Assembly: GCA_004293505.1 (NCBI GenBank)
Contig: RDYY01000137.1
Location: 1-19,770 of the forward strand
Reading direction: 5' to 3'
Source: Sphingobacteriia bacterium
GTDB lineage: Bacteria > Bacteroidota > Bacteroidia > Chitinophagales > Chitinophagaceae
Length of the DNA stretch: 19,770 nt
Position numbers and translations under genes: made by a program. How positions within the stretch are numbered: position 1 is the stretch's first letter; each line of letters opens with the position of its first letter. Under the pieces are notes generated by a model. That model made no database searches and had not been told where the DNA came from. It was given only the letters and a program-made list of their open reading frames with translations. This document shows, in pieces, positions 2,141-18,158 of the stretch.

Positions 2141-2169
2141 AGGATCCCGTGTGGCACGGGGTCCTTTTT
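2141..2169 (+). terminator. Rho-independent terminator after the peroxiredoxin gene
   Basis: An 11-bp stem (2141-2151 paired with 2155-2165, with one G-T wobble) and a TGG loop are followed by a run of Ts. It lies 30 bases after the peroxiredoxin stop codon. Two bases of the T-run belong to the stop codon of the convergent lipoprotein gene on the other strand. Read from that strand the hairpin is still formed but lacks a good U-tract, so it serves mainly the + strand transcript. Confidence 0.85.
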
Positions 2170-3079
2170 ATTTGGGCAAAATGTTCCAAAACAAGAGCAC
2201 CACTCTTCTGCGTTCGTCGTCTGTTTTGTAATCGGTGATTTTTTTACTGGGGTATTCTTCACCCTTTCCCAATTCAATGAAGACAAAATCTATGTCTTTG
2301 ATGGATTTGAATTGTGGAATTTTCTGGTCCAAGGAAAATTCCATGAGGTCCCCTATGTTGATGGCACGCAGCTCGGAGAGCTTTTGGTTCATTTTTTCTT
2401 TGGGCGCATTGGGGTCTTTCAGCAATTGTACCAATGTAGTCGCAATTTCACTTTCAGGTGAAAAGCCAGAGCCATCGGCAAAACCCAAAATGACCAAAGT
2501 GGCTTTTTTGTCTACATCGGCATAACGGTTGTAAAATTTAACCAAGGAGTCAATCAGCGGGGCAAAAGCTTCTTGGGCAATGCTTTTTTTGTCTTCTGGA
2601 ATTTCATATTTGCCTGGACCAAAAAAAGCTGCCAAGTCAAACATGTGTTGTTGGTTCACAATCACATCCAGTGCTTCATTGATCATGGTAAAACGTCGCA
2701 AGCGATAATTTTGCCCCGTTTTATACCTTTCCATGAAAGCAATGGATGAATCAAGTTGTGTTTTGTTGCGGCGATAGTCCTTGCCAGATGCTGTTCCTTT
2801 GTCGTCCACAAATTGCACAGCTTTGTTGAAGCTGTCCAAATCGGCAGCGTAACGGGCAATTTTGTTGTTGATGGAATCGGCAATGTTTTGGTCAATGACT
2901 TCGGCTTTGAGGCGATCATCTACTTTTTGCCGCGTATCGTTTACTGTTTTTTGGTCGGCTGCCTGAATGGTTTTGGCAGCCTCTACTTGTTGTTGAAACT
3001 GGGCTCTTTTACCACTGTAACAAGCAGTCAAGAGCAGCATACAAGCCATCCCATACCAAGTTGTGATCGATATTTTCAT
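2168..3079 (-). CDS. Lipoprotein with helical arm and OmpA-like peptidoglycan-binding domain
   Basis: The 303-residue protein starts with a lipoprotein signal: a hydrophobic stretch ending in L-T-A-C, with Cys20 as the lipidation site, so it is probably anchored in the outer membrane. Residues about 24-120 are rich in Q, K, D and A and look helical or coiled-coil. Residues about 155-300 follow the OmpA C-terminal fold: Y-E-I-P at 158-161, G-F-A-D-G at 199-203 (Asp202), L-S-E-L-R-A at 234-239 (Arg238), G-K-G-E-E-Y-P at 271-277 and D-E-R-R-R-V at 288-293. Asp202 and Arg238 occupy the places that bind diaminopimelate in OmpA/Pal. The domain is divergent: the usual N-R-R-V is R-R-R-V and the G-H-T-D motif is G-F-A-D. 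The gene begins one base after the stop of the small TM protein, so it belongs to the histidine kinase operon. The OmpA assignment rests on motif order and was not tested by profile search. Confidence 0.8.
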   Translation of the reverse strand: MKISITTWYGMACMLLLTACYSGKRAQFQQQVEAAKTIQAADQKTVNDTRQKVDDRLKAEVIDQNIADSINNKIARYAADLDSFNKAVQFVDDKGTASGKDYRRNKTQLDSSIAFMERYKTGQNYRLRRFTMINEALDVIVNQQHMFDLAAFFGPGKYEIPEDKKSIAQEAFAPLIDSLVKFYNRYADVDKKATLVILGFADGSGFSPESEIATTLVQLLKDPNAPKEKMNQKLSELRAINIGDLMEFSLDQKIPQFKSIKDIDFVFIELGKGEEYPSKKITDYKTDDERRRVVLLFWNILPK

Positions 3080-3080
3080 G

Positions 3081-3431
3081 TTAGTTTAATTTAGGGGAAG
3101 CACCAATGGCAAAATCGGTGGTTTTTTGATTTGGTTTTTTGGGCCGCGTCCTGCCCAACAAGATAATTTTTTTCTCCGTTCCCAATGGTTTCAAGGCAAG
3201 CTTACCTGGGTTGGTATTGTCTGGTTGTTGACCAGCAAAGACGGTCAAGAATTGTTTTTTCTCTCCTGTTGAAAAGTTCATGCGCAGGTTGGGGGATTCG
3301 GTCATTCCCCATGTTCGCCAATAGACCCCAGATTGGGGTTGAAAAAATGGCCAAACCAAATACAATAAAATAATGGCACCCATTAGCCAAAGCCAATGCA
3401 AAGGATCTCCTGTATGGCGCTTCAGCTTCAT
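3081..3431 (-). CDS. Small one-TM protein, unknown function, coupled to the histidine kinase gene
   Basis: I do not recognise the family. The 116-residue protein has a short basic N-terminus (K-L-K-R-H), one hydrophobic segment at about residues 11-30, and a basic, polar 85-residue tail with no cysteines, which by the positive-inside rule should face the periplasm. A longer in-frame reading back to 3521 exists, but it would lie entirely inside the kinase gene. The ATG at 3429-3431 is preferred because it overlaps the kinase stop codon as ATGA, a standard arrangement for translational coupling, and because it puts the TM segment near the N-terminus. The stop is one base from the next gene, the OmpA-like lipoprotein. 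The position between a membrane kinase and an outer-membrane lipoprotein suggests a signalling or bridging role, but this is inference from context only. Confidence 0.7.
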   Translation of the reverse strand: MKLKRHTGDPLHWLWLMGAIILLYLVWPFFQPQSGVYWRTWGMTESPNLRMNFSTGEKKQFLTVFAGQQPDNTNPGKLALKPLGTEKKIILLGRTRPKKPNQKTTDFAIGASPKLN

Positions 3432-5617
3432 AATCCCTTCTCCCGGATGGCCGTTAATTCTGCCATGATTTTTTCTTTGGCGCTGGTGACCCTTTGGCCC
3501 CATGCCATTATTTCTTCCCATTGGGGAGGAGATTGCCTAAACTTTTCCATGTTGCGAAGCGGTTCAATCAAAGGGGAGCTGGCATGGATGGTACCCACGG
3601 TTGTTTTTAAATTGTGGGCCAATGACAACACTTGTGTTAAGTTTTTTTCTGCCAACGCTTTTTCAAATTTTTCCAATTCAAGGGGGAACTGGGTTTGGAA
3701 TTCCTGTAAGAAAGCCAAGATGATCTCGGGTTCGTCCCCAAACATTTTTTTCAAGCTGTTGACGTCAACATAGATGGGTGTTGTCATGGTAGTGGGGGTA
3801 TTGGGGGCTGGAACAAATTCGTTGAAGACGGCCAGAAGTTCTTGCTCGCGAAGGGGTTTGGAGAGGTATCCATTCATGCCATGGACAAAGCATTTGTCCT
3901 TTTCAATGGGTAATGTGTGTGCTGTCATGGCCACAATGGGGACTTGGCTACCCAATTTTTTCCGGATGTGATCAGCTACACCATAACCATCCAAGAGGGG
4001 CATTTGAATGTCAATCAATACCAAATCATAAGGCTGGTTTTGGAACCTTGAAATGGCTTCTTGTCCATCTTTGGCCACATCAAATTGCAACCCTAATTTC
4101 TGAAACAAATAAGTGACAAACATTTGGTTCATGCGGTTGTCTTCCGCTACCAAAATCCTGGCCTTTCGGTTATAGCTTCCCCCATGCTGTGACACCATTT
4201 TGTGGGTTTCCTGGTTGGCATCAACCTGGTAAATGGTATAGGGAAGGATGACCGAAAATTGGGAGCCTTGGTTAACAGTACTCTCAACTTGAACATAACC
4301 GTTTTGCAAAGCAGCCAATTGTTTAACGATGGCCAAACCCAGGCCGGTGCCGCCAAATTTTCTGGTGGTGGCGGCATCTGCTTGTTCAAAGCGTTCAAAA
4401 ATGGATTCTAATTTATGGGCTGGGATACCAATGCCACTGTCTTTTACCTCAAACCGAACATAGACCTCGTCTTCACTGGATTTTTCTTTTTTTACCCGCA
4501 AGGAAATTCGCCCACCCGCTTCTGTAAATTTGATGGCATTCGAAACCAAATTGGTCAGGATCTGTTTCAAGCGGTTGTCATCGCCAGTTAAGTTTTGGGG
4601 CAGGTCTTCGTCTACCGTTACGGTAAAATGAAGGTCCTTTTCCTTGATTTGGACTTGGAACATCAATTCAATGAAGTGGACCACGTTGGACAATACAAAA
4701 GGCACTTTGGAAATGGGCATTTTGCCCGCTTCTAATTTGGAAAAATCCAAGATGTCGTTGATGATATAGAGCAGGTTTTCTCCCGAGGTTCTGATGAAGC
4801 GGACGTATTCTTCTTGTTCTGCATTCAGTGGGGTTTCTGCTGCCAATTGACTGAATCCAATGATGGAGTTTAAGGGTGTCCGGATTTCATGGCTCATGTT
4901 GGCCAAGAACTGTTCTTTGATTCTTCCTGCGTGGTCGGCTTTTTGCCGGGCTTGCTCCAAGTCAACAATCAGTTCATGGTTGCGCCGCAAAAATTGTAAA
5001 CCAAAACTAGCAGCCAACAAAATAACCACCAAGGCAAAAATGGTCAACAAACGACTGATCAACAAAACCTGGCTGGAAACAGCGGTGTTCTGAACAATGG
5101 TTTCTCGCAAAGTAAATTCAGCTGCAGACTGAAGGTCCGAAGCTGCCCCATAAATGCTGTCAATCAATTCCCTTGACTGTTGTCCTTCTAAAAGGGCCAA
5201 ACCACTGGGGTTGTTGGGGTTTAAAGTGGTTTTGGACAAAGTGATTTTTCGGCTCACCAATTGGTTCAGTTGGGTGGCCAGGTTTTTGTTGTTCAGTCCA
5301 GCAATCAATTGCCGCAAAGCAGCATTTTGTTTTTCCAAAACCTGCACCGTATCCAAGATTCTTCTTTGTTCTTTGGGGTCATTGGAGAGCAAGGCTTTTT
5401 TGCTTTCTGATTCAATGAAATAAACATTGTTGATGATTTCTTGCAAACCATTGTTGACTTGAAAAGTCTTGACGGCCAACTCGTTGCCACTCTGTAAGGC
5501 ACGGATGCTCTTGTCTGAACGGGATTGAACAAAAAACAAGACCACCATCAAGACCACCGATAAAATCAAGATAAAAAAAGTAGGCTTGTTGTGGGTACTG
5601 CTAACCTGCGCTGACAT
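3428..5617 (-). CDS. Hybrid sensor histidine kinase (CHASE3-like sensor, HisKA, HATPase, REC, HPt)
   Basis: This 729-residue inner-membrane phosphorelay protein has TM1 at about 12-31, a helical periplasmic region at 32-185 resembling CHASE3/four-helix-bundle sensors, and TM2 at about 187-210. The kinase core has the H-box M-S-H-E-I-R-T-P-L-N (phospho-accepting His243), the N-box around Asn356/Asn360, the G1 box D-S-G-I-G-I-P (393-399), the F-box F-E-R-F-E-Q (407-412) and the G2 box G-G-T-G-L-G-L (422-428). A receiver domain (about 486-602) keeps Glu492/Asp493, the phospho-acceptor Asp536, Thr565 and Lys587. A C-terminal HPt domain carries His668 in A-H-N-L-K. All residues needed for a His-Asp-His relay are present. 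It lacks PAS and HAMP domains. It is followed by a small TM protein (ATGA overlap) and an OmpA-like lipoprotein. No DNA-binding response regulator lies in the window, so the final acceptor is encoded elsewhere. Its ATG is 12 bases from the upstream pseudouridine synthase stop. Confidence 0.95.
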   Translation of the reverse strand: MSAQVSSTHNKPTFFILILSVVLMVVLFFVQSRSDKSIRALQSGNELAVKTFQVNNGLQEIINNVYFIESESKKALLSNDPKEQRRILDTVQVLEKQNAALRQLIAGLNNKNLATQLNQLVSRKITLSKTTLNPNNPSGLALLEGQQSRELIDSIYGAASDLQSAAEFTLRETIVQNTAVSSQVLLISRLLTIFALVVILLAASFGLQFLRRNHELIVDLEQARQKADHAGRIKEQFLANMSHEIRTPLNSIIGFSQLAAETPLNAEQEEYVRFIRTSGENLLYIINDILDFSKLEAGKMPISKVPFVLSNVVHFIELMFQVQIKEKDLHFTVTVDEDLPQNLTGDDNRLKQILTNLVSNAIKFTEAGGRISLRVKKEKSSEDEVYVRFEVKDSGIGIPAHKLESIFERFEQADAATTRKFGGTGLGLAIVKQLAALQNGYVQVESTVNQGSQFSVILPYTIYQVDANQETHKMVSQHGGSYNRKARILVAEDNRMNQMFVTYLFQKLGLQFDVAKDGQEAISRFQNQPYDLVLIDIQMPLLDGYGVADHIRKKLGSQVPIVAMTAHTLPIEKDKCFVHGMNGYLSKPLREQELLAVFNEFVPAPNTPTTMTTPIYVDVNSLKKMFGDEPEIILAFLQEFQTQFPLELEKFEKALAEKNLTQVLSLAHNLKTTVGTIHASSPLIEPLRNMEKFRQSPPQWEEIMAWGQRVTSAKEKIMAELTAIREKGL

Positions 5618-5629: not shown

Positions 5630-6343
5630 CTAAGGCTTGGCCCATTTTTCCAGCTGTTGTAGACTGGCCCGCAAGTCTTTGGGCAAAGGGGCTTCCACAA
5701 CAAAGGATTCGCCTTGATAGCTAAAACAAAGCCGATGGGCATGCAAGGCCAGTCGGTTCAACAAGGGGGTTTCGGCTTCGGCTGAATGGTTGAGTTTGAA
5801 ATTCTTTTTGAGGCTGGACAAGAGCAGGGGTTGCCCATCGCCATACAAAGGGTCAGCCACAATGGGGTGGCCCAAATACTGCAGGTGCACGCGGATTTGG
5901 TGCATGCGTCCGGTATGGATTTGTAGGGCCAGCCAACTGTACTGGGAGAAAGTTTTCAATGTGGTGTATTCGGTCAGCGAGGCCTTGCCTTGTGCATGGG
6001 TCATCATTTTGGTGACCTTGCCAGGGTGTTCTTTCAAGGGAACATCAATTTGCCCAGTTGGGTGCAAGATTTTCCCTTTCACCAAGCCCAAATAATGTTT
6101 CTCTATGTCGCGGCTTTCCCACAAAGCACACAAAGCTTGGTGGGCTGCTGGGTGGCGGGCAAACACCAGTACCCCACTGGTGTCTTTGTCCAAGCGGTGA
6201 ACCGTGAATACTTTGCCCAAAGCTTGGTCCAACAATGATTTCATAGAGGGCGCATTGCCTTCGCGGTCAGGAATGCTCAACAGCCCAGAGGGTTTGTTCA
6301 CGGCCAACCAATCATCACATTGGTACAACACATCAATCGCCAT
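5630..6343 (-). CDS. RluA-family RNA pseudouridine synthase
   Basis: The protein isomerises uridine to pseudouridine in rRNA or tRNA. The 237-residue form begins at the ATG at 6341-6343. A further in-frame TTG at 6373 would add ten residues but overlap the upstream gene by 41 bases, so the ATG with an 11-base overlap is preferred. The catalytic motif H-R-L-D-K-D-T-S-G has its aspartate at residue 52. An N-K-P-S-G-L motif (about 16-21) precedes it, and H-T-G-R-M-H-Q-I-R-V-H (about 144-154) follows, both typical of the RluA/RluC/RluD/TruC group. There is no S4 domain at the N-terminus, in contrast to the upstream gene. The target uridine cannot be read from the sequence. Overlap with the rluB-like gene and the same orientation as rlmN make it the last member of an RNA-modification operon. 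Confidence 0.9.
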   Translation of the reverse strand: MAIDVLYQCDDWLAVNKPSGLLSIPDREGNAPSMKSLLDQALGKVFTVHRLDKDTSGVLVFARHPAAHQALCALWESRDIEKHYLGLVKGKILHPTGQIDVPLKEHPGKVTKMMTHAQGKASLTEYTTLKTFSQYSWLALQIHTGRMHQIRVHLQYLGHPIVADPLYGDGQPLLLSSLKKNFKLNHSAEAETPLLNRLALHAHRLCFSYQGESFVVEAPLPKDLRASLQQLEKWAKP

Positions 6344-7478
6344 GGTGGGGGCTTTGGGGTTTTTTGCGGACAAATCCCTTGTTCATGTGTTTGAGCAGGC
6401 GCACTTCTTTTTCTTGCAGAAAGCGCCACTTGCCCCTTTCCACATTTTTTTTGGTGAGGTTGGCAAACAACACCCGGTCCAAGGCTTTTACTTCGTAGCC
6501 AAAATGTTCAAAAATGCGGCGCACAATGCGGTTTTTGCCGCTGTGGATTTCAATGCCAATCACATTTTTGCTTTGGCCATCTACATAGCCCACGGCATCG
6601 GCTTTCACAAATCCATCTTCTAAGGTGATGCCTGCCAGGATCTGTTCCAAATGGTTTTTGGACACAGCAGTTTCCAAAGTAATCTCATACACTTTGCGCA
6701 CTTCGTAGGAGGGGTGAGACAATTGCTGGGTCAATTCACCATCATTGGTTAAAATAAGCACCCCTGTTGTGTTGCGATCCAATCGGCCAATGGGAAAAAC
6801 CCTTTCAGGTGTAGCAGCCCGTACCAAGTCCACCACGGTTTTGCGGCCTTGGGGGTCGGAAGCGGTAGTGATGAAATCCTTGGGTTTGTTCAATAAAATG
6901 TATACCGCATTTCTTTGCAAGAAAACGGCTTTGCCTTTTACTTTCACTTTGTCTTTGGCCGATACTTTATAGCCTGGCTCATACACAATGTCTCCGTTAA
7001 CGGTAACCTTTCCAGTCTTGACCAATTCGGCCGCTTCGCGTCGGGCACAGACCCCTGCATGGGCAATGAATTTGTTCAAGGGCATTTGTTCGGCCAATGC
7101 TTTTTCGGCCTTGGGCGCCGTCATTTCTCCAGCGGCTGTTGTTGTGGACCGGCCATTGGGTTTTCCCGTAAATTTTTTTTCTTTTCCAGCAAAAGCTTTC
7201 TCTTTTGCACCAGCAGGAGCTGTGGTTTTTTTGTCGGAGAATTTGTTTTTTTCAGTCGCAGATGGGGGGGGCAATTTTCCCTTGCCAACAGGGGCGGGGC
7301 GAGTGGGTTCCAAGGGCACCAAACCCCGGGCTTTGTCTTTTTTCAATTGGCGCATGGCTTCTCCCGCAGCGCGGGCCTCGGCCTTGACTTTGCGCTTCTC
7401 TTGGCGCATGGCTTCCTTGATGGCTGCCCCCTTTTTCTTGTTGGCAAACTGTTGGAAATTGTCTGTTCTTTTTTTCAT
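6333..7478 (-). CDS. rluB: S4-domain pseudouridine synthase, RluB/RsuA family, with long basic N-terminal tail
   Basis: This 381-residue enzyme belongs to the RsuA/RluB/RluE/RluF group, of which RluB modifies a uridine in 23S rRNA near the peptidyl-transferase region. Residues about 132-162 form the S4 RNA-binding domain (P-L-N-K-F-I-A-H-A-G-V-C-A-R-R-E-A). The catalytic motif G-R-L-D-R-N-T-T-G has the aspartate at 234, and K-N-R-I-V-R-R-I-F-E-H-F-G-Y near 320-332 is the family's C-terminal motif. The first about 130 residues are low complexity, rich in K, A, G, T and P with repeated E-K-x-K-like patches, and are probably disordered and RNA-binding. Basic tails of this sort occur in Bacteroidota homologues, though this one is long. 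The ATG at 7478 lies nine bases after the rlmN stop. The 3' end overlaps the RluA-family gene. The choice of RluB over other family members is by general resemblance. Confidence 0.88.
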   Translation of the reverse strand: MKKRTDNFQQFANKKKGAAIKEAMRQEKRKVKAEARAAGEAMRQLKKDKARGLVPLEPTRPAPVGKGKLPPPSATEKNKFSDKKTTAPAGAKEKAFAGKEKKFTGKPNGRSTTTAAGEMTAPKAEKALAEQMPLNKFIAHAGVCARREAAELVKTGKVTVNGDIVYEPGYKVSAKDKVKVKGKAVFLQRNAVYILLNKPKDFITTASDPQGRKTVVDLVRAATPERVFPIGRLDRNTTGVLILTNDGELTQQLSHPSYEVRKVYEITLETAVSKNHLEQILAGITLEDGFVKADAVGYVDGQSKNVIGIEIHSGKNRIVRRIFEHFGYEVKALDRVLFANLTKKNVERGKWRFLQEKEVRLLKHMNKGFVRKKPQSPHHGD

Positions 7479-8593: not shown

Positions 8594-9790
8594 ATGTCTT
8601 CAGCCTGTTATGTGATTGATGCCGTGCGTACCCCCATTGGGCGATATGGCGGCCGGCTCAGCAGTATTCGCCCCGACGATTTGCTGGCCCATGTGTTTCG
8701 TTCCTTGTTGCTGCGCAACCCCCAAATAGACCCGGCCGCCATTGAAGACGTGGTGGCGGGTGCGGCCAACCAAGCAGGAGAGGACAACCGCAACGTGGCC
8801 CGCATGGCCGCTTTGCTGGCTGGTTTGCCCGTAACGGTCGGGGGTAATACCGTCAATCGCTTGTGTGCCAGTGGCCTCCAAGCCATCATGGATGCGGCCC
8901 GCGCCATTCAGTGCGGAGAAGGTTTGTTCTATCTGGCCGGCGGCGTAGAGAGCATGACCCGGGCCCCTTTTGTTACGGCCAAACCCGAAGGCGCTTGGCA
9001 GCGCAAACAAGAAACCTTTGATACCACCATCGGTTGGCGCTTTACCAATCCAGCTCTGGCGGCCCTTTACCATCCTTACAGCATGGGCGAAACTGCAGAA
9101 AACGTGGCCCGTCAATGGAAGATCAGCAGAGAAGCCCAAGACCAATTTGCTTTTCAGTCCCAACAGAAATACCAAGCCGCCCTGGCCCAAAACAAATGGG
9201 AAGACGAAATAGTGGCCATTGAAATGATCCAAGACCGCCTCATTACTTGGTTCAACCAAGACGAACATCCCCGGGCCAGCAGCTTGGAAAAACTGGCTGC
9301 CCTGAAACCTGCTTTTGCCAAAGACGGAACGGTGACCGCAGGCAATTCTTCTGGCATCAACGATGGGGCTGCTGCGCTCTTGTTGGCCAGTGAAGAAGCC
9401 GTGCAACAGTTTGGCCTTAACCCCTTGGCGCGCATCGTTTCCATGGGTGTGGCCGGCGTTGACCCTGCCATCATGGGCATCGGCCCCGTCCCTGCTTCCC
9501 AAAAAGCCTTGCAGCGAGCGGGTTGGCAGGCCCAAGACCTATCGGCCATTGAATTGAACGAAGCATTTGCGGCCCAGAGCCTGGCTTGTGTGCAAGACCT
9601 GGCTTTGGATTCCAACAAAGTAAACGTCAATGGTGGCGCCATTGCATTGGGGCATCCCTTGGGTTGCAGTGGGGCACGCATTTCGGCTACGCTTTTACAT
9701 GAATTGCACCGCCAAGGTGGTGGCAAGGGATTGGCCACCATGTGCGTGGGCGTTGGACAAGGGGCTGCCATGGCGTATGAAGTGTTCTAA
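8594..9790 (+). CDS. pcaF: Thiolase, 3-oxoadipyl-CoA/acetyl-CoA acyltransferase (PcaF/PaaJ type)
   Basis: The enzyme cleaves a 3-ketoacyl-CoA with CoA to release acetyl-CoA, or runs the condensation in reverse. The 398-residue length and the motif set are those of thiolases: nucleophilic Cys91 in N-R-L-C-A-S-G, G-G-V-E-S-M-T-R-A-P-F near 115-125, G-H-P-L-G with His354, and the second active-site Cys384 in C-V-G-V-G-Q-G. Several stretches (N-Q-A-G-E-D-N-R-N-V-A-R-M and D-T-T-I-G-W-R-F) are typical of the beta-ketoadipyl-CoA thiolase subgroup of aromatic and phenylacetate degradation. However, no pca or paa genes flank it, so in this organism it may serve general fatty-acid or amino-acid breakdown. 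It is divergent from rlmN and shares a 50-base intergenic region with it. The ATG at 8594 gives a normal N-terminus. Confidence 0.9.
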   Translation: MSSACYVIDAVRTPIGRYGGRLSSIRPDDLLAHVFRSLLLRNPQIDPAAIEDVVAGAANQAGEDNRNVARMAALLAGLPVTVGGNTVNRLCASGLQAIMDAARAIQCGEGLFYLAGGVESMTRAPFVTAKPEGAWQRKQETFDTTIGWRFTNPALAALYHPYSMGETAENVARQWKISREAQDQFAFQSQQKYQAALAQNKWEDEIVAIEMIQDRLITWFNQDEHPRASSLEKLAALKPAFAKDGTVTAGNSSGINDGAAALLLASEEAVQQFGLNPLARIVSMGVAGVDPAIMGIGPVPASQKALQRAGWQAQDLSAIELNEAFAAQSLACVQDLALDSNKVNVNGGAIALGHPLGCSGARISATLLHELHRQGGGKGLATMCVGVGQGAAMAYEVF

Positions 9791-9841
9791 ATTTTTTGCT
9801 TCCTGCTTTGGCCTTGTTGATTTTCGCAGTAATTTAACCAC

Positions 9842-10210
9842 ATGAAAAAAATCCTCTTCTTTTTTGCTCTGGCCATTGGCCTTTCCCTGGGCGCAGCTGC
9901 CCAAGCCGATACCACTTTGAACGCTTACTTGGGCAAGTACAAATTCCCTGAAGGATCTGTGGTTTCCGAAGTAGTGGTTGCCTTGGAAGCAGGGGGGCTG
10001 ACGATGGGTTCCTCCGCAGGCACCTCCACTTTGGTAAAAGTAGAAACCGACGTGTTCACCATTACCCAATTCCAGGGAACGGCAACCTTTAAAAGAGACG
10101 AGAACAAAAAAGTAGTAGGCGTAACCATCAATGCCATGGGCTATTTGCTGGAAGGCACCCGTTCGGAAGGCTTAGCGGGATGGGTTTTCCGCCCGCTGTT
10201 GAAAAAATAA
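9842..10210 (+). CDS. Small secreted protein of unknown function
   Basis: I do not firmly recognise this 122-residue protein. It starts with a clear Sec signal peptide: M-K-K, a hydrophobic stretch, then S-L-G-A-A-A-Q-A, with cleavage likely near residue 20-22. There is no lipobox cysteine, and the mature part has no cysteine at all. The mature region is short, beta-rich and of the form L-x-x-Y-x-G-K-Y-x-F followed by alternating strands, resembling the small C-terminal beta domains (DUF3471-like) attached to serine hydrolases in Bacteroidota. That resemblance is by eye and weak. It lies 51 bases after the thiolase gene on the same strand, with no terminator seen between them, so they may be co-transcribed. 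Its last 39 bases overlap the end of hisS on the other strand. Confidence 0.8.
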   Translation: MKKILFFFALAIGLSLGAAAQADTTLNAYLGKYKFPEGSVVSEVVVALEAGGLTMGSSAGTSTLVKVETDVFTITQFQGTATFKRDENKKVVGVTINAMGYLLEGTRSEGLAGWVFRPLLKK

Positions 10211-11563
10211 CAAGAGGTCTTCCAGTCCCATGTTGGACTGGCTTCCTTGTGAAAGGTTTTTCAACACAATTTTTCCTGCAGCCAATTCATCCGAGCCCAA
10301 GATGGCCACAAAAGGAATCTGTTTTTTCTCGGCGTAGCGGAATTGTTTGTCAAATTTTTGCTGCTCGTGAAAGAGCTCGGTGGCAATGCCCGCTGCCCGC
10401 AAAGTTTGCATCCAACGAAAAGCTTCCGCCGCTTCTTTTTGGCCCAGGTGAAAGAACAACAATTGGGTGGTCTCTGCCAAAGTGGTGGGAAACAGCGCCA
10501 ATTCTTCCATCACGTCGTATATGCGGTCCACGCCAAAGCTAATGCCCACGCCCGGTAAATTGGGTACGCCAAACAGACCCGTCAGGTCATCGTATCGGCC
10601 CCCGCCCCCAATGCTGCCCATTTGTACCCCCTGGGCCTTCACTTCAAAGATGGTTCCGGTATAATAATTCAGTCCTCGGGCCAACGTAAAATCCAATTCC
10701 ACTGTGGTGTTTCCCCAAAAGGGTTGGGCTTGGGCCAAAATGGTTTCCAATTCGGCCAAACCCGTTTCTGCTTGGGCCTCGCTGCCCAAGAGGGCCCGCA
10801 TGGCCGTTGCTTTTTGGGCATTGTTGCCCGAGATGGACAAATAAGTCTTGATTTTTTCAATGGCGGCAGCGGGTAGTCCTTTGTTCTCTAATTCCGCCGC
10901 TACTTTTTCCCAACCTATTTTGTCTAATTTGTCAATGGCCACGCTAATGGGCACCATCCATTCTGGGCCACCACAGGTTTGGGCCAAAGCGGCCAAAACC
11001 TTTCTGTTGTTGAGTTTCAGGGTAATGGGCAATTGCAGGGCTTGGAACACAGCCGCGTACAACAACACCAACTCGGTTTCATTTTGCAAGGAAGAACTGC
11101 CTACAATGTCGGCATCACATTGGTAAAATTCGCGGTAGCGTCCTTTTTGGGGCCGATCGGCGCGCCAAACGGGTTGCACCTGGTAGCGCTTAAAGGGAAA
11201 GGTCAATTGGCCATGGTTCATGGCCACATAGCGGGCAAAGGGGATGGTGAGGTCATAGCGCAAAGCCCTTTCGGTTAGGTCCTTGCTGCTCTTGCCAGCC
11301 AAGACGTTTTCCAAAGCTGCTCGGCTGCGATCGGCCTTGTCGGGGTTGGCCAAACCATTGTTGAGGATTTTGAAAATCAATTGATCGCCTTCTTCGCCGT
11401 ACTTGCCCATCAGGGTCTCCAGGTTTTCCATGGCAGGGGTTTCTAAGGGTTGGAACCCATAGGTTTCAAAGACACGGCGTATGGTTTGAAAAATATATTG
11501 TCTGCGTTGGACCACAGTGGCCGAAAAATCGCGGGTGCCTTGTGGTAAACCGGGTTTGGACAT
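10172..11563 (-). CDS. hisS: Histidine--tRNA ligase
   Basis: This class II aminoacyl-tRNA synthetase charges tRNA-His. With the start at the ATG at 11561-11563 it is 463 residues long and begins M-S-K-P-G-L-P-Q-G-T-R-D-F, the standard HisS N-terminus. A second in-frame ATG at 11587 would add eight residues and lies only five bases after a -7-like octamer. Motif 1 is around E-T-P-A-M-E-N (about 41-47). Motif 2 runs from F-K-R-Y-Q-V to F-Y-Q-C-D (124-150) with the R-x-D-R-P-Q-K-G-R core. The histidine-A motif is R-G-L-N-Y-Y-T-G (296-303), with Asn where many bacteria have Asp, followed by G-G-G-G-R-Y-D-D-L (319-327). Motif 3 is G-I-S-F-G-V-D-R-I (340-348). The C-terminal anticodon-binding domain follows. 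The 3' end overlaps the small secreted protein gene tail to tail by 39 bases. Confidence 0.96.
   Translation of the reverse strand: MSKPGLPQGTRDFSATVVQRRQYIFQTIRRVFETYGFQPLETPAMENLETLMGKYGEEGDQLIFKILNNGLANPDKADRSRAALENVLAGKSSKDLTERALRYDLTIPFARYVAMNHGQLTFPFKRYQVQPVWRADRPQKGRYREFYQCDADIVGSSSLQNETELVLLYAAVFQALQLPITLKLNNRKVLAALAQTCGGPEWMVPISVAIDKLDKIGWEKVAAELENKGLPAAAIEKIKTYLSISGNNAQKATAMRALLGSEAQAETGLAELETILAQAQPFWGNTTVELDFTLARGLNYYTGTIFEVKAQGVQMGSIGGGGRYDDLTGLFGVPNLPGVGISFGVDRIYDVMEELALFPTTLAETTQLLFFHLGQKEAAEAFRWMQTLRAAGIATELFHEQQKFDKQFRYAEKKQIPFVAILGSDELAAGKIVLKNLSQGSQSNMGLEDLLLFFQQRAENPSR
10222..10241. repeat. Inverted repeat near the convergent hisS / secreted-protein ends
   Basis: CCAGTCC and GGACTGG flank six bases, giving a perfect 7-bp stem 11 bases after the stop codon of the secreted-protein gene and inside the last part of hisS. 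A T-run (GTTTTTC) appears only about 15 bases further on, so it is at best a weak + strand terminator. It may be chance symmetry in coding sequence. Confidence 0.3.
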
Positions 11564-11592
11564 GGGAAAAATTTTGGCGTCAAGCATGCGGG

Positions 11593-11600
11593 CAAAGATA
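11593..11600 (-). promoter_or_regulatory. Likely -7 promoter element for hisS
   Basis: On the - strand TATCTTTG matches the Bacteroidota -7 consensus TAnnTTTG exactly. It is five bases from the upstream candidate ATG (11587) and 29 bases from the preferred hisS ATG (11563). With the preferred start it would give a normal short leader of about 25 bases. With the other start the mRNA would be leaderless. Confidence 0.5.
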
Positions 11601-11677
11601 GTTGTTCGCAGCGGGAGAGACAGCAGCGGGGAGATGGCTTATGGAATTTTGTTTGGGCTGGCATCTCAGATAAAAAA

Positions 11678-11944
11678 ATGGCTACATTGCGTTTCCTCAC
11701 CCCCGAAGAAATGGAGAATCCCTACCGACAGAGAAGCCAAGAGAAATTCCTCACCCTGCGCCGGGTTTATGACCTGACCATGGCGATCTTGATCCTGGCG
11801 GTGGCCTTGGCGCTGGTTTTTTTGGACCGCATTGCCGCCAACCTGACGTTTACGGCCGAACCCCTGTACCGCTACGGTTTTGCCGGTGTGTGTTTTATGT
11901 ATGGCTTGTTTCGGTTGTACCGGGGCATCAAGAATCCTTATTGA
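11678..11944 (+). CDS. Small two-TM membrane protein, unknown function
   Basis: I do not recognise the family with certainty. The 88-residue protein has a charged, probably cytoplasmic N-terminus of about 30 residues, TM1 at about 33-49 and TM2 at about 66-81, and ends in a short basic tail. Both ends are therefore predicted inside. The TGA stop is two bases from the ATG of the PstS-like lipoprotein gene, so the two are almost certainly co-transcribed, with the TPR gene next. In Bacteroidota a PstS-like protein and a TPR protein often follow ExbB/ExbD/TonB genes. Those are absent from this window, and this protein lacks the ExbD or TonB pattern (one N-terminal TM and a periplasmic domain). 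The ATG is preceded by an A-run rather than a Shine-Dalgarno sequence. Confidence 0.75.
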   Translation: MATLRFLTPEEMENPYRQRSQEKFLTLRRVYDLTMAILILAVALALVFLDRIAANLTFTAEPLYRYGFAGVCFMYGLFRLYRGIKNPY

Positions 11945-11946
11945 GC

Positions 11947-12864
11947 ATGAAGGCAGTGAAGCAAGCTTTTTTGTGGGCAATGTGTTGCGGTGCTTGGTCT
12001 TGTACCAGTCCTGTGGATCCGGCATCCCTGCCCGACAGTCCCACACAAGGCAAAATCCACATCAGTGTAGACGAAACGTATAAACCCGTAATCGAGGAGC
12101 AATTGGCCGTGCACCATGCCAGTTTTCCGCAAACCACCATTGTGGCGGAATACAAACCGGAGGCCGATTGTTTTCGGGACTTGCAACAAGACAGCACCCG
12201 GATGATCATCGTTGGTAGAGGTTTAACGGAAAAAGAAGCGGATTTTTACAAAAGCTCTTTATCTTACAAGCCCCAATATGGCGTGCTGGCCTACGATGCA
12301 GTGGCCCTGGTGGTCAACAAAGAAGCACCAGACAGCATATTTACTTTTGATAGGGTGCGCGATATATTGAGTGGAAAAGACAAGACAACAGCTGTCATGG
12401 ATGGGCGCAGTGCCACCAGTACGGTGCGCTTTTTACAGGACAGTGTCTTGAAAGGAAGTTCTTTCGGGAAAAATGTAGTAGCAGTAGACAACAGCGAAGC
12501 GGTATTGGATGTGGTGTCTCGCCGCAAAGACCTGATTGGTTTTGTGGGATTCAGTTGGATTGGAGACGCCTATGATCCTGGGCAAAGGGCTTTGCTGAAC
12601 AAGCTGCGCCTGGCCATGGTAGAATGCACGGCCTGCTTGGAAAATGGGGTTTTTGCCAAACCTTCACAGGCCACGGTTACCCGCGGTGAATACCCTTTTC
12701 GCCGGCCCATCTACTACATTTTAAAAGAGAACACCAACCAACTCGGCACGGGCTTCATGAATTTCATGAGCTTGGAAAGGGGACAGTTGATATTCAGGCG
12801 AGCGTTTTTGGCCCCGGCCAAAATGGCTTTCCACCGCAGAAACGGAAGCATCAAAGAAGAATAA
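11947..12864 (+). CDS. PstS-like periplasmic substrate-binding lipoprotein
   Basis: The 305-residue protein looks like a divergent member of the phosphate-type solute-binding family. After a short hydrophobic signal, Cys19 in A-W-S-C-T-S is a plausible lipidation site, although tryptophan at the -2 position is not canonical. The mature part has the order expected of PstS: an opening strand K-I-H-I-S-V-D at 36-42, A-Y-D-A-V-A-L-V-V-N at 115-124, an anion-binding-like loop G-R-S-A-T-S-T-V-R-F-L at 153-163, I-G-F-V-G-F-S at 197-203 and Y-P-F-R-R-P at 249-254. No pstABC permease genes accompany it, so a role in ATP-driven phosphate uptake is not supported. The ATG at 11947 is chosen over one at 11890 because it begins the signal sequence two bases after the previous stop. 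The TPR gene follows after 21 bases. Confidence 0.82.
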   Translation: MKAVKQAFLWAMCCGAWSCTSPVDPASLPDSPTQGKIHISVDETYKPVIEEQLAVHHASFPQTTIVAEYKPEADCFRDLQQDSTRMIIVGRGLTEKEADFYKSSLSYKPQYGVLAYDAVALVVNKEAPDSIFTFDRVRDILSGKDKTTAVMDGRSATSTVRFLQDSVLKGSSFGKNVVAVDNSEAVLDVVSRRKDLIGFVGFSWIGDAYDPGQRALLNKLRLAMVECTACLENGVFAKPSQATVTRGEYPFRRPIYYILKENTNQLGTGFMNFMSLERGQLIFRRAFLAPAKMAFHRRNGSIKEE

Positions 12865-12885
12865 ATCTTTATTAAAAAGCGAGCA

Positions 12886-14688
12886 ATGAAGAAAACGGTT
12901 TTATTGTTGTGGGCTGGATTGGCAGCCGCTCAGGTCTTGACCGCACAGTTAGCAGAAGGGATCAAGTTCCTGAACTATGAAAAGAACAAATCGGCCAAAA
13001 CGGCTTTGCAAAAAGCCTATGACACCAACCCCAAAGATGGACAAAACATTTATTGGCTGGGCCAGGCTTTGATGGCAGGCGATGGTTTTGTGTCTACGAC
13101 ACAGGACTTGGCCGATGCCAAAGCCCTTTACCAGAAAGGATTACAAGAAATTGGTTCCGATCCCTGGCTGCTGGTGGGCATGGGCCATGTAGAAATTTTG
13201 GAAGGGGGCGATTTGAACGCCGCCAAACAAAAATTTGAGCAAGCCATCACCGCTACCACTGAAACCAAGGGCAAGAACAAAGGCAATGCCAACCCAGGCA
13301 TCTTGAATGCCATTGGACGCGCCAATGCCGATGGCAGCAGCAAATTGGGGGATCCCATTTATGGCATCGAGAAATTGAAAAAAGCAGGAGCCATTGACTT
13401 GACCAACCCCGATATTTTCGTGAACATGGGCATCAACTACCAAAAATTGGGTGGTGAAAATGGGGGAGAAGCCGTTAAAGCCTACCAGGAAGCCTTGGCC
13501 CGCGATCCCAAAAATGCCCTGGCCCTCTACCGCACAGGACGCATTTACCAGAGCCAGAACAACAAAGAGTTGTTCGAAGAATTTTACGACAAAACCATTG
13601 CCGCTGACCCTGCTTTTCCCCGGGTGTACTACGCTTATTACAACTACTATTCTAACCGTGACGTGAGCAAGGCCAAGGATTATTTGGACAAATACGTGGC
13701 CACAGCTGATTCGGATCCCCGCAACGATATTTTCTTAGCCGATTATCTTTTCCGTGCTGGTCGTTATACCGAGTCTTTGGAAAAAACAACGGCGTTGGAC
13801 AAAGCTTATGGCTTGGAAAAATTGCCCCGCTTGGGCGTTTTGTATGCTTACAACAACGACCGCTTGGGTGATTCCCTCAAAGCCCGTCAATACATTGATG
13901 GTTTCTTGAGCAAAGCCCCCGAAGCCGAAAAATTGGCCAGTGATTATGAATTGGGTGCGGCCATCAATGCCAAATTTCCCGATGGCCTCAACAATGCCAG
14001 CCAGTATGTAGAAAAAGCCTTGGTCTTGGACACCATCAAAGCCAACCAAATTGCCCTCATGGGAAAAGTGGCCGAGTATTTTGGTAAGAACAAAGCTTAT
14101 GGCGAGCAATTGAAATGGATGAAGCGCCAGGTAGAAGCCCGCGGCACACCTCCTTCTGAAGCCGATTTTTACCGAATGACCAATGCCGCTTTTACCGCTA
14201 AGGACTATGCCCAAACCATGGAATTGGCCAAGCCCTATATGCAAGCCTTCCCCGACAAGCCCCAACCTTTTAGCTTTTTCCGCCGGGCGGCTTTGGCCAC
14301 CGATCCTGACTCTACCAAAGGATCAGCGCTGGAAGCCTTGGAATACCAGAACACCCTCTATGCCAATGATTTGGCCAAGAACAAAACCAAGATTTACCAG
14401 AACCAGATTTATGCTTTGGTATTCTACATCAACAAATACAATGCCCTCCAAAAAGACCCCGATTTCAAGGTTAAAAGTGATGGCAGCCGCACACCCGTAG
14501 TGGACCAGTGCATTGCAGCCGCCCAAAAAGCCGTGGAAACCTGCGATAAAATGCTGCAATTGTACCCTGAACCCACCGATGAAGTCAACAAATTGGCCAC
14601 CGATCAAAAAGCCAAGGCCCAAAAAGTCATTGACTATTATTCCAAAGCGGGGAACAAGACCGCTGGACCTGCCAAGTCGCATCCATAG
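12886..14688 (+). CDS. Secreted tetratricopeptide-repeat protein
   Basis: The 600-residue protein begins with a Sec signal peptide (M-K-K, then a leucine/alanine-rich stretch, with cleavage probably near A-Q at about 20-21), so it is periplasmic or surface-associated. The rest is helical with degenerate TPR units; the clearest lie at about 40-60, 85-130 and 185-240, where A-x-x-x-Y-Q-x-A-L-x-x-D-P-x-N-x-x-A-L patterns are visible, and others follow to about 590. TPR arrays bind partner proteins, and no catalytic motif is seen. The last 25 residues are lysine/alanine rich. It follows the PstS-like gene after 21 bases and ends 25 bases before a terminator, so it is the last gene of a three-gene unit. 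Linked PstS-like and TPR genes are common near TonB-system genes in Bacteroidota, but its own partner is unknown. Confidence 0.9.
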   Translation: MKKTVLLLWAGLAAAQVLTAQLAEGIKFLNYEKNKSAKTALQKAYDTNPKDGQNIYWLGQALMAGDGFVSTTQDLADAKALYQKGLQEIGSDPWLLVGMGHVEILEGGDLNAAKQKFEQAITATTETKGKNKGNANPGILNAIGRANADGSSKLGDPIYGIEKLKKAGAIDLTNPDIFVNMGINYQKLGGENGGEAVKAYQEALARDPKNALALYRTGRIYQSQNNKELFEEFYDKTIAADPAFPRVYYAYYNYYSNRDVSKAKDYLDKYVATADSDPRNDIFLADYLFRAGRYTESLEKTTALDKAYGLEKLPRLGVLYAYNNDRLGDSLKARQYIDGFLSKAPEAEKLASDYELGAAINAKFPDGLNNASQYVEKALVLDTIKANQIALMGKVAEYFGKNKAYGEQLKWMKRQVEARGTPPSEADFYRMTNAAFTAKDYAQTMELAKPYMQAFPDKPQPFSFFRRAALATDPDSTKGSALEALEYQNTLYANDLAKNKTKIYQNQIYALVFYINKYNALQKDPDFKVKSDGSRTPVVDQCIAAAQKAVETCDKMLQLYPEPTDEVNKLATDQKAKAQKVIDYYSKAGNKTAGPAKSHP

Positions 14689-14713
14689 CCAATGGTTTTG
14701 GAAACCGAATAAT

Positions 14714-14748
14714 AAAAACTCCTCCAAAGCGGGGAGTTTTTCTTTTTT
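14714..14748 (+). terminator. Rho-independent terminator after the TPR gene
   Basis: AAAAACTCC (14714-14722) pairs with GGAGTTTTT (14733-14741) across a 10-base loop, followed by CTTTTTT. It separates the PstS-like/TPR unit from the nuo operon. The left arm starts with an A-run, so it could also stop transcription from the other strand. Confidence 0.85.
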
Positions 14749-14762
14749 ACCCCCCTTGGCCT

Positions 14763-14770
14763 TATTTTTG
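14763..14770 (+). promoter_or_regulatory. Likely -7 promoter element for the nuo operon
   Basis: TATTTTTG fits TAnnTTTG exactly and lies between the TPR terminator and nuoA, 17 bases before the nuoA ATG. That leaves a leader of roughly 13 bases. A clear -33 TTTG is not seen; the expected region falls in the T-rich tail of the terminator. Confidence 0.5.
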
Positions 14771-14787
14771 CAGCCTTAAACACCCGT

Positions 14788-15189
14788 ATGGAGTTAACCC
14801 ATTTTTTCCTAGACGCCAGCGCTGGCAGTTCGGCCGCCAATTATTTTCCCATCGGCATCCAATTGATTTTTGCGGCTGGTTTTGTGGCCACCATGATTGG
14901 TCTTTCGGCCTGGGTGGGCCCCAAGCGCCGTACCAGGGACAAATTGGAGAATTTTGCCTCGGGCATTGAGACCCATGGCAATGCCCGTCAGCCCATGGCC
15001 ATCAAGTATTTTTTGGTTGCTATTCTTTTTGTGTTGTTTGATGTAGAAGTGATTTTTTTCTATCCTTATGCCGTGAATTTCCGCGAATTGGGTTGGTCAG
15101 GTTTTTTGGCCGTCCTGATGTTTGTGGGCTTTTTCTTGGTGGGCTTTACCTATATCATCAAAAAAGGGGCTTTGAAATGGGAAGACTAA
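14788..15189 (+). CDS. nuoA: NADH-quinone oxidoreductase subunit A
   Basis: NuoA is a small membrane subunit at the junction of the peripheral and membrane arms of complex I. The 133-residue protein has three TM segments at about 20-42, 71-92 and 103-124. The conserved loop and TM2 are present: G-I-E-T-H-G-N-A-R-Q-P-M (59-70), then K-Y-F-L-V-A-I-L-F-V-L-F-D-V-E-V (73-88), including the conserved acidic residues Asp85 and Glu87, then F-Y-P-Y-A. The usual G-C-x-P loop cysteine is absent, with Ser58-Gly59-Ile60-Glu61 in its place. The first gene of the operon, it is preceded by a promoter-like octamer and a terminator that isolates it from the TPR gene. nuoB begins 59 bases later. Confidence 0.95.
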   Translation: MELTHFFLDASAGSSAANYFPIGIQLIFAAGFVATMIGLSAWVGPKRRTRDKLENFASGIETHGNARQPMAIKYFLVAILFVLFDVEVIFFYPYAVNFRELGWSGFLAVLMFVGFFLVGFTYIIKKGALKWED

Positions 15190-15248
15190 AGCCAGTGCTG
15201 AACTTAAATGTTCATGGTGCGTTTTAGGAAACCAGTAAAAAAACAATT

Positions 15249-15839
15249 ATGTCACGTCCGGTAAGATTCAATGTTCACCCCATCGAAGCCAAAATAGGCG
15301 ATGCAGTTGCTATGGTGGATGCTCCTCCAGGCCACCAAGGCGAAGGTTTTTTCACCGCCAAGCTGAGTGATGTAGTGGGTTTGGCCCGCAAAAATTCCCT
15401 CTGGCCCCTGCCTTTTGCCACCTCCTGTTGTGGCATCGAGTTCATGGCCACCATGGGCTCCCACTATGATTTGGCCCGTTTTGGGTCGGAGCGCGTAGGC
15501 TTCTCGCCCCGCCAGTGTGACCTCCTCATGGTCATGGGCACCATTGCCAAAAAAATGGGACCTGTTTTGCGCCAAGTGTACTTGCAAATGGCCGAGCCCC
15601 GTTGGGTGATAGCCGTGGGCGCTTGCGCTTCCTCTGGGGGTATTTTTGATACCTATTCTGTGTTGCAAGGCATTGACCAAGTGATTCCCGTTGACGTATA
15701 CGTGCCCGGTTGTCCTCCCCGGCCCGAAGCCATTTTGGATGGTTTCATGAAAATCCAAGACTTGGTGGGACAAGAAAGCATTCGGCGCCGCAACAGCGAC
15801 CGCTACAAAGCATTGTTGAACAGCTACGGCATTGAATAA
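15249..15839 (+). CDS. nuoB: NADH-quinone oxidoreductase subunit B
   Basis: NuoB carries iron-sulfur cluster N2, the last cluster before quinone, in the connecting module of complex I. The 196-residue protein has the tandem cysteines Cys60-Cys61 in T-S-C-C-G-I-E-F, Cys126 in V-G-A-C-A-S-S-G-G and Cys155 in V-P-G-C-P-P-R-P-E, all the N2 ligands in the standard spacing. The first about 40 residues are a variable extension, and the C-terminal about 25 are basic. The ATG at 15249 follows an A-rich stretch. nuoC starts seven bases after its TAA. Confidence 0.97.
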   Translation: MSRPVRFNVHPIEAKIGDAVAMVDAPPGHQGEGFFTAKLSDVVGLARKNSLWPLPFATSCCGIEFMATMGSHYDLARFGSERVGFSPRQCDLLMVMGTIAKKMGPVLRQVYLQMAEPRWVIAVGACASSGGIFDTYSVLQGIDQVIPVDVYVPGCPPRPEAILDGFMKIQDLVGQESIRRRNSDRYKALLNSYGIE

Positions 15840-15846
15840 ACCAAAC

Positions 15847-16353
15847 ATGGCACTCACCAACGAAACCATTACCAGCCGCTTACAAGAAAAATTTGGCGCC
15901 GAGATCAGCGGCATCGAAGAAACCTATGGCATGCTCAGTTTTGAAGCGCCCAAGGCCCTCAACTTGAAAGTGCTGCAATTTTTGTACGACGATCCCCAAT
16001 TGGGTTTTCAATTTTTGACCGATCTCTGTGCCGTGCATTATCCCGACCAAGTGGGCCGCGAATTGGCCGTGGTTTATCACTTGCACAACTTGGCCGACAA
16101 TGTGCGCATCCGCTTCAAAGTCTTTACCAGCGTGCAAGAACCCGATGTGTTCACCGCCACCCAACTTTTTTCCAGTGCCAACTGGATGGAAAGAGAAACC
16201 TATGATTTTTATGGCGTGAATTTCGTGGGCCACCCCAACTTGAAAAGGATCTTGAACGTAGACGAAATGGATTATTTCCCCCTGCGCAAAGAGTTCCCTT
16301 TAGAAGACCAGACCCGTGTAGACAAGGACGACCAAATGTTTGGAAGAGGATAA
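15847..16353 (+). CDS. nuoC: NADH-quinone oxidoreductase subunit C (30 kDa subunit)
   Basis: NuoC is a peripheral-arm subunit that packs against NuoD. The ATG at 15847, seven bases after the nuoB stop, gives 168 residues. An in-frame TTG at 15832 inside nuoB is less likely. The family signature E-R-E-T-Y-D-F-Y-G-V-N-F and G-H-P-N-L-K-R-I-L lies at 115-136, followed by P-L-R-K-E-F-P-L. It is a stand-alone nuoC, not fused to nuoD as in E. coli. nuoD follows 25 bases later. Confidence 0.95.
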   Translation: MALTNETITSRLQEKFGAEISGIEETYGMLSFEAPKALNLKVLQFLYDDPQLGFQFLTDLCAVHYPDQVGRELAVVYHLHNLADNVRIRFKVFTSVQEPDVFTATQLFSSANWMERETYDFYGVNFVGHPNLKRILNVDEMDYFPLRKEFPLEDQTRVDKDDQMFGRG

Positions 16354-16378
16354 CCGGTACAACCGCAAAAGCAACAAA

Positions 16379-17602
16379 ATGGCTGAACAAAACATCATAC
16401 TGCCTGCTGGCTCTTTGGAGACCAAAACCACTACCCTCAACGTAGGGCCTACCCACCCTGCTACCCACGGTGTTTTCCAAAACATCATGGAATTAGATGG
16501 TGAGCGCGTGGTGTCTACCGAACAAACCGTGGGGTATATCCACCGGGCTTTTGAGAAATTGGCCGAGCGCAGACCCCTTTACCAAGTAACCCCCATTACC
16601 GATCGCTTGAACTATTGCAGCAGCCCCATCAACAACATGGGCTGGCACCTGACTTGCGAAAAAATGCTGGGCGTTAAAACCCCCAAGCGGGTAGATTATT
16701 TGCGCATCATCATCATGGAATTGGCGCGCATTTCTGATCACTTGATTTGTAATTCCATTGTGGGTGTTGACACGGGCGCTTATACCGGATTCTTGTATGT
16801 GATGCAGTACCGCGAACTGATTTATGAAATCTACGAAGAAGTTTGCGGCTCTCGCCTCACCACCAACATTGGCCGCATTGGCGGATTTGAAAGAGATTTT
16901 ACGCCCACGGCTTTTGAGAAGTTGGAAAAATTCTTGGTCGAGTATCCCAAAGTGTTGAAAGAATTTGAAAACCTTTTTGCCCGCAACCGCATCTTCATGG
17001 AGCGTACCATAGGGGGCGGTGCCATTTCTGCTGCGCGGGCCCTCAACTATGGTTTTACCGGCCCCAATTTGCGGGCTGCTGGCGTAGACTATGACGTGCG
17101 GGTGCACAGTCCTTATTCCAGCTACGAAGATTTTGAATTTGATGTGCCCGTGGGCAGCACGGGAGACAATTACGATCGCTTCTTGGTGCGCAACCAAGAA
17201 ATGTACCAGAGCTTGCGCATCATAGAACAAGCTTACCAAAAAGTACAGGCTTTCAAAGGCACGGAAAACGATGTTTTCCACGCCGATGTGCCCGAATATT
17301 ATTTGCCCGAAAAGCAAGACGTCTACACCAAGATGGAAGCTTTGATCTGGCACTTTAAAATTGTGATGGGCGAGATTGACATGCCCAAGGCCGAAGTGTA
17401 CCAAGCCGTAGAAGGGGGCAACGGAGAATTGGGCTTTTACCTGATCAGTGACGGTGGCCGAACGCCTTATCGCCTCCACTTCCGCCGCCCTTGCTTTATC
17501 TATTACCAGGCTTATGAAGAATTGATCAAAGGGGGCATGCTCAGCGATGCCATCGTGACCATGAGTAGCCTTAACCTGATTGCTGGAGAACTAGACGCCT
17601 AA
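16379..17602 (+). CDS. nuoD: NADH-quinone oxidoreductase subunit D (49 kDa subunit)
   Basis: NuoD forms much of the quinone-binding pocket with NuoB and is related to the large subunit of NiFe hydrogenases. The 407-residue protein has G-P-T-H-P-A-T-H-G at 23-31 (the loop with the quinone-site histidine), Q-T-V-G-Y-I-H-R near 49-56, the R-x-x-G-G motif in I-G-R-I-G-G-F, and G-G-G-A-I-S-A. The C-terminus reads G-E-L-D-A rather than the more usual E-x-D-R. The ATG at 16379 is chosen over an in-frame TTG at 16340, which lies inside nuoC. nuoE starts 21 bases after the stop. Confidence 0.97.
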   Translation: MAEQNIILPAGSLETKTTTLNVGPTHPATHGVFQNIMELDGERVVSTEQTVGYIHRAFEKLAERRPLYQVTPITDRLNYCSSPINNMGWHLTCEKMLGVKTPKRVDYLRIIIMELARISDHLICNSIVGVDTGAYTGFLYVMQYRELIYEIYEEVCGSRLTTNIGRIGGFERDFTPTAFEKLEKFLVEYPKVLKEFENLFARNRIFMERTIGGGAISAARALNYGFTGPNLRAAGVDYDVRVHSPYSSYEDFEFDVPVGSTGDNYDRFLVRNQEMYQSLRIIEQAYQKVQAFKGTENDVFHADVPEYYLPEKQDVYTKMEALIWHFKIVMGEIDMPKAEVYQAVEGGNGELGFYLISDGGRTPYRLHFRRPCFIYYQAYEELIKGGMLSDAIVTMSSLNLIAGELDA

Positions 17603-17623
17603 ACAAGAATTCAAACCTAAGAT

Positions 17624-18124: not shown

Positions 18125-18130
18125 ATTCAA

Positions 18131-18145
18131 GCCAACTGGGTTGGC
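18131..18145 (+). other. Short hairpin between nuoE and nuoF
   Basis: GCCAAC and GTTGGC flank TGG, a perfect 6-bp stem with a tight loop, 14 bases before the nuoF ATG and followed by an A-rich stretch, not a T-run. It is therefore not a terminator. It could mark an mRNA processing or stability point inside the nuo transcript, or be chance. Confidence 0.35.
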
Positions 18146-18158
18146 CAAAAAATAAAAT

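Follow-up and report, generated by a model that had tools for sequence, protein, structure and literature searches.

Background

To our knowledge, the known lipoprotein-based systems of outer-membrane and cell-wall signaling, namely, Rcs and YfiBNR, have been worked out in Gammaproteobacteria. The response regulator of the former, RcsB, is of the LuxR type, and the Rcs system (RcsF, IgaA and RcsC/D/B) comprises an outer-membrane lipoprotein, an inner-membrane partner and a kinase phosphorelay. In the YfiBNR system of Pseudomonas aeruginosa, an OmpA-like lipoprotein, fully active only when it is anchored in the membrane and binds peptidoglycan, sequesters a bridging repressor, YfiR, and so relieves the repression of an inner-membrane enzyme, YfiN, a diguanylate cyclase whose periplasmic domain is of the PAS type (PMC4655355). 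Here we describe a three-gene unit, hereinafter the trio, that encodes a hybrid histidine kinase, a small protein with one transmembrane (TM) segment and an OmpA-like lipoprotein on contig RDYY01000137.1 of a Sphingobacteriia bacterium of the family Chitinophagaceae (assembly GCA_004293505.1). The window is this entire contig of 19,770 nucleotides, which belongs to a 1.85-Mb genome that is 88% complete. The likeliest reading, for which the chances appear to us about evenly balanced, is that the trio is a phosphorelay that senses the envelope and resembles YfiBNR or Rcs in layout, without being homologous to either system as a whole. That a design of this kind is workable is shown by YfiBNR.

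The trio and its components

The preliminary description of this DNA proposed a tightly coupled operon, and the open reading frames (ORFs), their strand and their junctions are all as it had them: the kinase and small-protein genes share an ATGA overlap, and a one-base gap separates the latter from the lipoprotein gene. The features of the trio are the following.

3428..5617, minus strand: hybrid histidine kinase, 729 amino acids, in the order TM1, periplasmic sensor of ~150 residues, TM2, HisKA, HATPase, receiver (REC), histidine phosphotransfer (HPt)
5060..5518, minus strand: predicted periplasmic sensor region, ~residues 34-186, helical and weakly CHASE3-like (Pfam CHASE3 E 0.052, below the cut-off; low-pTM model; conserved profile A3)
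4889..4891, minus strand: His243 of HisKA, invariant in 26/26 kinases
3827..4156, minus strand: kinase receiver domain (Pfam Response_reg) with Asp536 at 4010-4012, invariant in 26/26
3503..3712, minus strand: C-terminal HPt-like domain (Pfam Hpt 19.3 bits against a cut-off of 24.6) with His668 at 3614-3616, invariant in 26/26
3081..3431, minus strand: small protein, 116 amino acids, one predicted TM segment and a tail of ~85 residues taken as periplasmic
3093..3113, minus strand: C-terminal tail motif of the small protein, FAIGASP in the window and F-x-I-K-P-x-P-Q in many relatives, found in 18/18 trio loci
2168..3079, minus strand: OmpA-like lipoprotein, 303 amino acids
3020..3079, minus strand: lipoprotein signal peptide and Cys20, the cysteine invariant across the 71 aligned sequences
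2654..3019, minus strand: lipoprotein arm, helical and resembling a three-helix bundle
2171..2650, minus strand: OmpA-like domain with Asp202 (2474-2476) and Arg238 (2366-2368), both invariant in 71/71

The HisKA, HATPase_c and Response_reg domains of the kinase exceed the Pfam cut-offs and the Hpt match remains under its own, but His243, Asn360, Asp536 and His668 are invariant in all 26 aligned sequences (alignment A5, the window kinase and 25 of the 34 homologs found). The four domains and the catalytic residues of a hybrid phosphorelay kinase (HisKA-HATPase-REC-HPt) are accordingly present, the HPt domain being recognized by its invariant histidine and a sub-cut-off score, and the complete His-Asp-His relay claimed for this protein at the outset stands. 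The predicted structure of the kinase has a low predicted template modeling score (pTM, 0.32), with helices in the sensor region; a fold search yielded, among the matches listed, kinase cores only, and no sensor fold is claimed.

In the lipoprotein, Asp202 and Arg238 correspond to the Asp/Arg pair of peptidoglycan-binding OmpA domains. The pair is conserved without exception in the 71 aligned homologs (alignment A4, the window protein and 70 chosen among 120 listed homologs, of 192 found) and also in all 36 linked and unlinked copies considered, from which the weaker unlinked copies L052, L053, L055 and L056 were left out, as they were from the lipoprotein tree described below. Structure comparison of the predicted model gave an OmpA-type fold and, with the Asp/Arg pair, this is the basis for calling the domain OmpA-like. 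The protein matches no NCBIfam family, and a profile search by sequence against solved structures found no relative. At L157 (9830-11161, genome G295), the lipoprotein homolog is an ORF of 443 amino acids, perhaps a fusion, which differs at its N-terminus and lacks an aligned cysteine.

Comparison with described systems

The preliminary description likened the layout to Rcs without visible homology to RcsF or IgaA, and the likeness survives as an analogy only. Neither RcsF (PF16358) nor IgaA (PF07095) has a match in the window genome, at its 88% completeness, although the Escherichia coli control was matched in both cases, and RcsF has no hit among the three trio proteins. The window kinase scores 271.7 bits against the NCBIfam RcsC model, well under the cut-off of 920, and scores higher, though again under the cut-offs, against BarA (388.4 versus 890) and LuxQ (358.4 versus 1200). 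Membership in Rcs was rejected on these grounds. In addition, unlike in Rcs, the HPt domain of the trio is fused to the kinase, and the regulator encoded in relatives is of the LytTR type. Compared with YfiBNR, the signaling protein is a hybrid kinase, with no GGDEF match in Pfam, rather than a diguanylate cyclase, and the middle protein is membrane-anchored and matches no Pfam family, although no search was aimed at homology to YfiR. With the Pal/OmpA-type peptidoglycan-binding proteins, the lipoprotein shares the OmpA-like fold and the Asp/Arg pair but differs in its Pfam score, below the OmpA cut-off, in its long helical arm and in being encoded together with a kinase.

Distribution and inheritance of the trio

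The three nearest relatives (titled Sediminibacterium sp., Sphingobacteriia bacterium and Chitinophagaceae bacterium; loci L002-L004), whose lipoproteins are 63-64% identical to that of the window, all encode a presumably pseudouridine synthase-like protein, the kinase, the small protein and the lipoprotein, in this order. The order of the trio recurs in 15 of the 394 genomes of the window's family, in six genera, and the three named relatives bring the number of loci to 18; in all of these, the genes are on the same strand, with 316-948 bases from the kinase stop to the lipoprotein ORF. Profiles for the lipoprotein (A1) and the sensor (A3), built from 11 trio loci, were then compared across the family; the genome searches scored part of the candidates (for example, 7 of 26 in the sensor search and 5 of 32 in the lipoprotein search), and absences hold at that depth. 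At E <= 1e-18, the sensor was detected in 24 of the 394 genomes and the lipoprotein in 47, with all 24 falling within the 47. Put differently, the lipoprotein is present in 24/24 sensor genomes versus 23/370 others (Fisher test, ~1e-25 by genome) and, by genus, in 8/8 sensor genera versus 11/93 others (4e-7), both values ignoring kinship. In 15 of the 24 sensor genomes, the lipoprotein gene lies downstream of the kinase with a one-TM ORF in between; in the remaining nine, it is unlinked, ~14-20 kb from the kinase in eight genomes of one genus (g72) and on a separate contig in G029. Beyond the family, sensor matches were found in six of 298 genomes sampled across the order, all six belonging to the window's family, and lipoprotein matches in seven of 296 genomes sampled across the phylum, three of them from one genus of another family.

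A kinase tree of 40 sequences unites the 18 from trio loci in one clade (Shimodaira-Hasegawa-like approximate likelihood ratio test, SH-aLRT, 99), separate from more distant kinases with homologous sensors (second-tier and third-tier kinases), the L158 kinase having a long branch. The lipoprotein tree, of 36 sequences, places the 18 linked copies together with a single unlinked one, L036 from genome G026 (support 93). Both trees are of the quick kind, and the kinase tree was made without L126, whose frame is broken up, and L132, whose kinase reaches the contig end. Because the trio kinases form one clade and the linked lipoproteins group together, the sequences fit a single association, inherited together. 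No kinase match was found in the stretch examined around the trio-type lipoprotein of G026 (8924-9832); directly upstream of this gene is an ORF of 612 amino acids of unassigned kind.

Outside the trio clade, the sensor region and the kinase of the second-tier and third-tier loci are homologous to those of the trio, and the regulator encoded upstream matches the profile of the trio-type regulator, but no small protein or lipoprotein is among the neighbors shown. A PAS-like insert also sets at least two second-tier kinases apart from those of the trio. Four second-tier kinases (L121, L122, L124 and L166) are 876-901 amino acids long, and in L121 and L122 the insert, which we take to be PAS-like, lies between TM2 and HisKA. 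In the sensor comparison, four of five second-tier sensors were truncated, and the second-tier values were set aside. In the third-tier loci L087, L089, L126, L127, L130, L131 and L136-L139, a short, hydrophobic-looking ORF of ~62-77 amino acids, unlike the small protein of the trio, separates the regulator from the kinase; that of L087 has no Pfam match.

The small protein is the most variable of the three components. It matches no family in Pfam or NCBIfam, and its mean column identity, 33%, is below that of the lipoprotein (50%) and of the sensor profile region (46%), so it evolves faster than both partners. The proteins of all 18 loci have a hydrophobic stretch as well as a conserved tail, whose pattern was picked after the sequences had been inspected. 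Weak matches of its profile to solved structures, Zuotin (E 0.009 and 0.034) and a G protein-coupled receptor, were taken as chance.

Several observations weigh against an envelope-sensing trio. The Fisher tests of co-occurrence are uncorrected for kinship and, at E <= 1e-4, among 244 genomes, just 13 of the 33 that have the sensor profile also have the lipoprotein (27/244 overall); conversely, of the 47 genomes with the lipoprotein, 23 lack a sensor match at 1e-18. In ten same-genus genomes, the sensor is without a match, and in the nine of these that were also searched for the lipoprotein, none was found. The lipoprotein scores 16.3 bits against the gathering cut-off of 27.2 for Pfam OmpA (PF00691), Foldseek by itself gives no match for it at E <= 0.001, and the linked copy L157 has no aligned cysteine. 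The small-protein profile misses the copy at L158, which was identified by position and tail alone. Finally, neither the small protein nor the lipoprotein is among the listed neighbors of the related kinases at any of the 19 third-tier loci (L087-L089 and L125-L140, excluding genomes G205, G051, G190, G006, G185 and G194) or the five second-tier loci (five of nine genomes) inspected. Two outcomes that the preliminary description had named as tests came out mixed: conservation of gene order extends to 18 loci, and the lipoprotein tracks the sensor at 1e-18 even where unlinked, but the association fades at 1e-4; kinase homologs do occur without the two other genes among the neighbors listed, but these are the more distant ones, the trio kinases forming one clade with their partners.

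The third-tier loci and the lipoprotein genomes without a sensor match at 1e-18 speak for an alternative that we consider unlikely, namely, that the lipoprotein and the small protein are outputs controlled by the kinase, or structural parts of the envelope, and that the stimulus of the kinase is a different one, perceived by its own helical domain. This is countered by the presence of the lipoprotein in every sensor genome at the stringent threshold, including the nine where the genes are not adjacent, which points to a connection with the sensor and not to shared transcription alone. The constancy of the hydrophobic stretch and the tail, in turn, is compatible with regulation of the kinase by the small protein alone, in the manner of single-TM modulators such as MgrB, a membrane protein of 47 residues that inhibits the kinase PhoQ (PMC8404706); the lipoprotein would then be a passive peptidoglycan anchor in the operon. 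We regard this as quite improbable given that co-occurrence ties the lipoprotein to the sensor, also where unlinked, and that the small protein changes faster than its partners. A stable neighborhood of three genes without functional interaction is very unlikely: other genes also stay around the trio in the window's branch (L002-L004), but across the six genera the order is kept amid otherwise different flanks, the trio kinases belong to a single clade, and the lipoprotein goes with the sensor even at a distance.

The LytTR response regulator and its apparent loss

In nine of the 18 trio loci (L031-L035, L038, L157, L158 and L161), a response regulator is encoded directly upstream of the kinase, and each of the five tested in Pfam contains the LytTR and Response_reg domains. 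A same-strand regulator also precedes the kinase in 19/19 third-tier and 5/5 second-tier loci, sometimes with a short ORF in between. Five trios of genus g23 (taken as Niabella) have no adjacent regulator, but all five genomes keep one elsewhere, beside an atpA-like gene; four of these regulators are 82-83% identical to that of the fifth genome, G237, and an ORF of 129-177 residues adjoins each. The 133-amino-acid ORF adjoining the G237 regulator matches no Pfam family but is 33-47% identical, over 63-103 residues, to the HPt end of 12 trio kinases. At L090 (9028-10204) and L169-L172, where the regulator and a lone HPt-like ORF lie beside the atpA-like gene and the trio is elsewhere, the arrangement is perhaps the remnant of a kinase copy.

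The window locus has no LytTR regulator beside the kinase. The best regulator matches in the window genome and its three near relatives have E-values of 2e-39 to 4e-26, against 5e-66 to 2e-59 in six other genomes that have the regulator; in those six, the paralogous regulators that belong to third-tier pairs come to 1e-52 to 3e-59, and none of these is seen in the window's branch either. No orphan LytTR regulator was found in the window genome, the two matches at E <= 1e-8 (3e-31 and 1e-26) each lying beside another kinase-like gene, presumably of the LytS type, judging by an NPHF-type motif. The three near relatives have 5, 11 and 2 weaker matches, few of which had their neighbors inspected. 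Because a close LytTR copy is seen neither in the window genome, which is 88% complete, nor in the three nearest relatives, loss of the regulator in this branch is the simplest reading of the sequences, the unit of the branch apparently being the derived form. That a regulator co-occurs with the trio, as suggested at the outset, is borne out in half of the loci and, at a distance, in the five Niabella genomes, but not in the window's branch. Among the 16 receiver-domain loci of the window genome, one of which is the trio kinase, there may be substitute regulators, but none could be singled out.

Neighboring genes

One further ORF of the window directly precedes the trio.

5630..6373, minus strand: ORF that we take to encode a pseudouridine synthase-like protein, ending 12 bases upstream of the kinase, in the same order in L002-L004

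This ORF is perhaps co-transcribed with the kinase. Past the lipoprotein, on the opposite strand (261-2110), are genes that we take to be DinB-like and peroxiredoxin-like and that stay near the trio in L002-L004. Ordinary-looking genes occupy 10172-19511, including what we assume to be a hisS-like gene and, from 14788, a nuo-like cluster.

A candidate mechanism and its implications

If the trio is an envelope-sensing phosphorelay, the lipoprotein would reside in the outer membrane and contact peptidoglycan through its OmpA-like domain, and the small protein would be tethered to the inner membrane, its tail extending into the periplasm. These two proteins would jointly set the activity of the hybrid kinase via its periplasmic helical sensor, so that the relay through His243, Asp536 and His668 would report the state or the spacing of the outer membrane and the cell wall. 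Across the wider clade, the relay would end in the LytTR response regulator, the gene of which lies directly upstream; in the window's branch, where this regulator seems to have been lost, the partner of the kinase is probably a regulator encoded elsewhere. We infer the localization of the trio proteins, the binding to peptidoglycan, the contacts between the parts, the direction of the signal and the alternative output.

A more specific version, with the balance of probability tilted against it, is that the trio represents an undescribed family of trans-envelope phosphorelays in which the tail of the one-TM protein is a tethered ligand of the sensor, captured or released by the peptidoglycan-bound lipoprotein as the distance between the outer membrane and the cell wall changes, and that the window's branch has been rewired away from LytTR. 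A literature search, in which subscription journals were thinly covered, found no paper on such a system.

If the envelope-sensing interpretation is correct, it would suggest that the combination of a peptidoglycan-bound lipoprotein, a membrane bridge and a kinase arose more than once. An independent layout of this kind in Chitinophagaceae, with carriers apparently including Niabella and Panacibacter, would make envelope sensing testable in this phylum. The apparent loss of the regulator in the window's branch is a natural case of a phosphorelay with a changed output.

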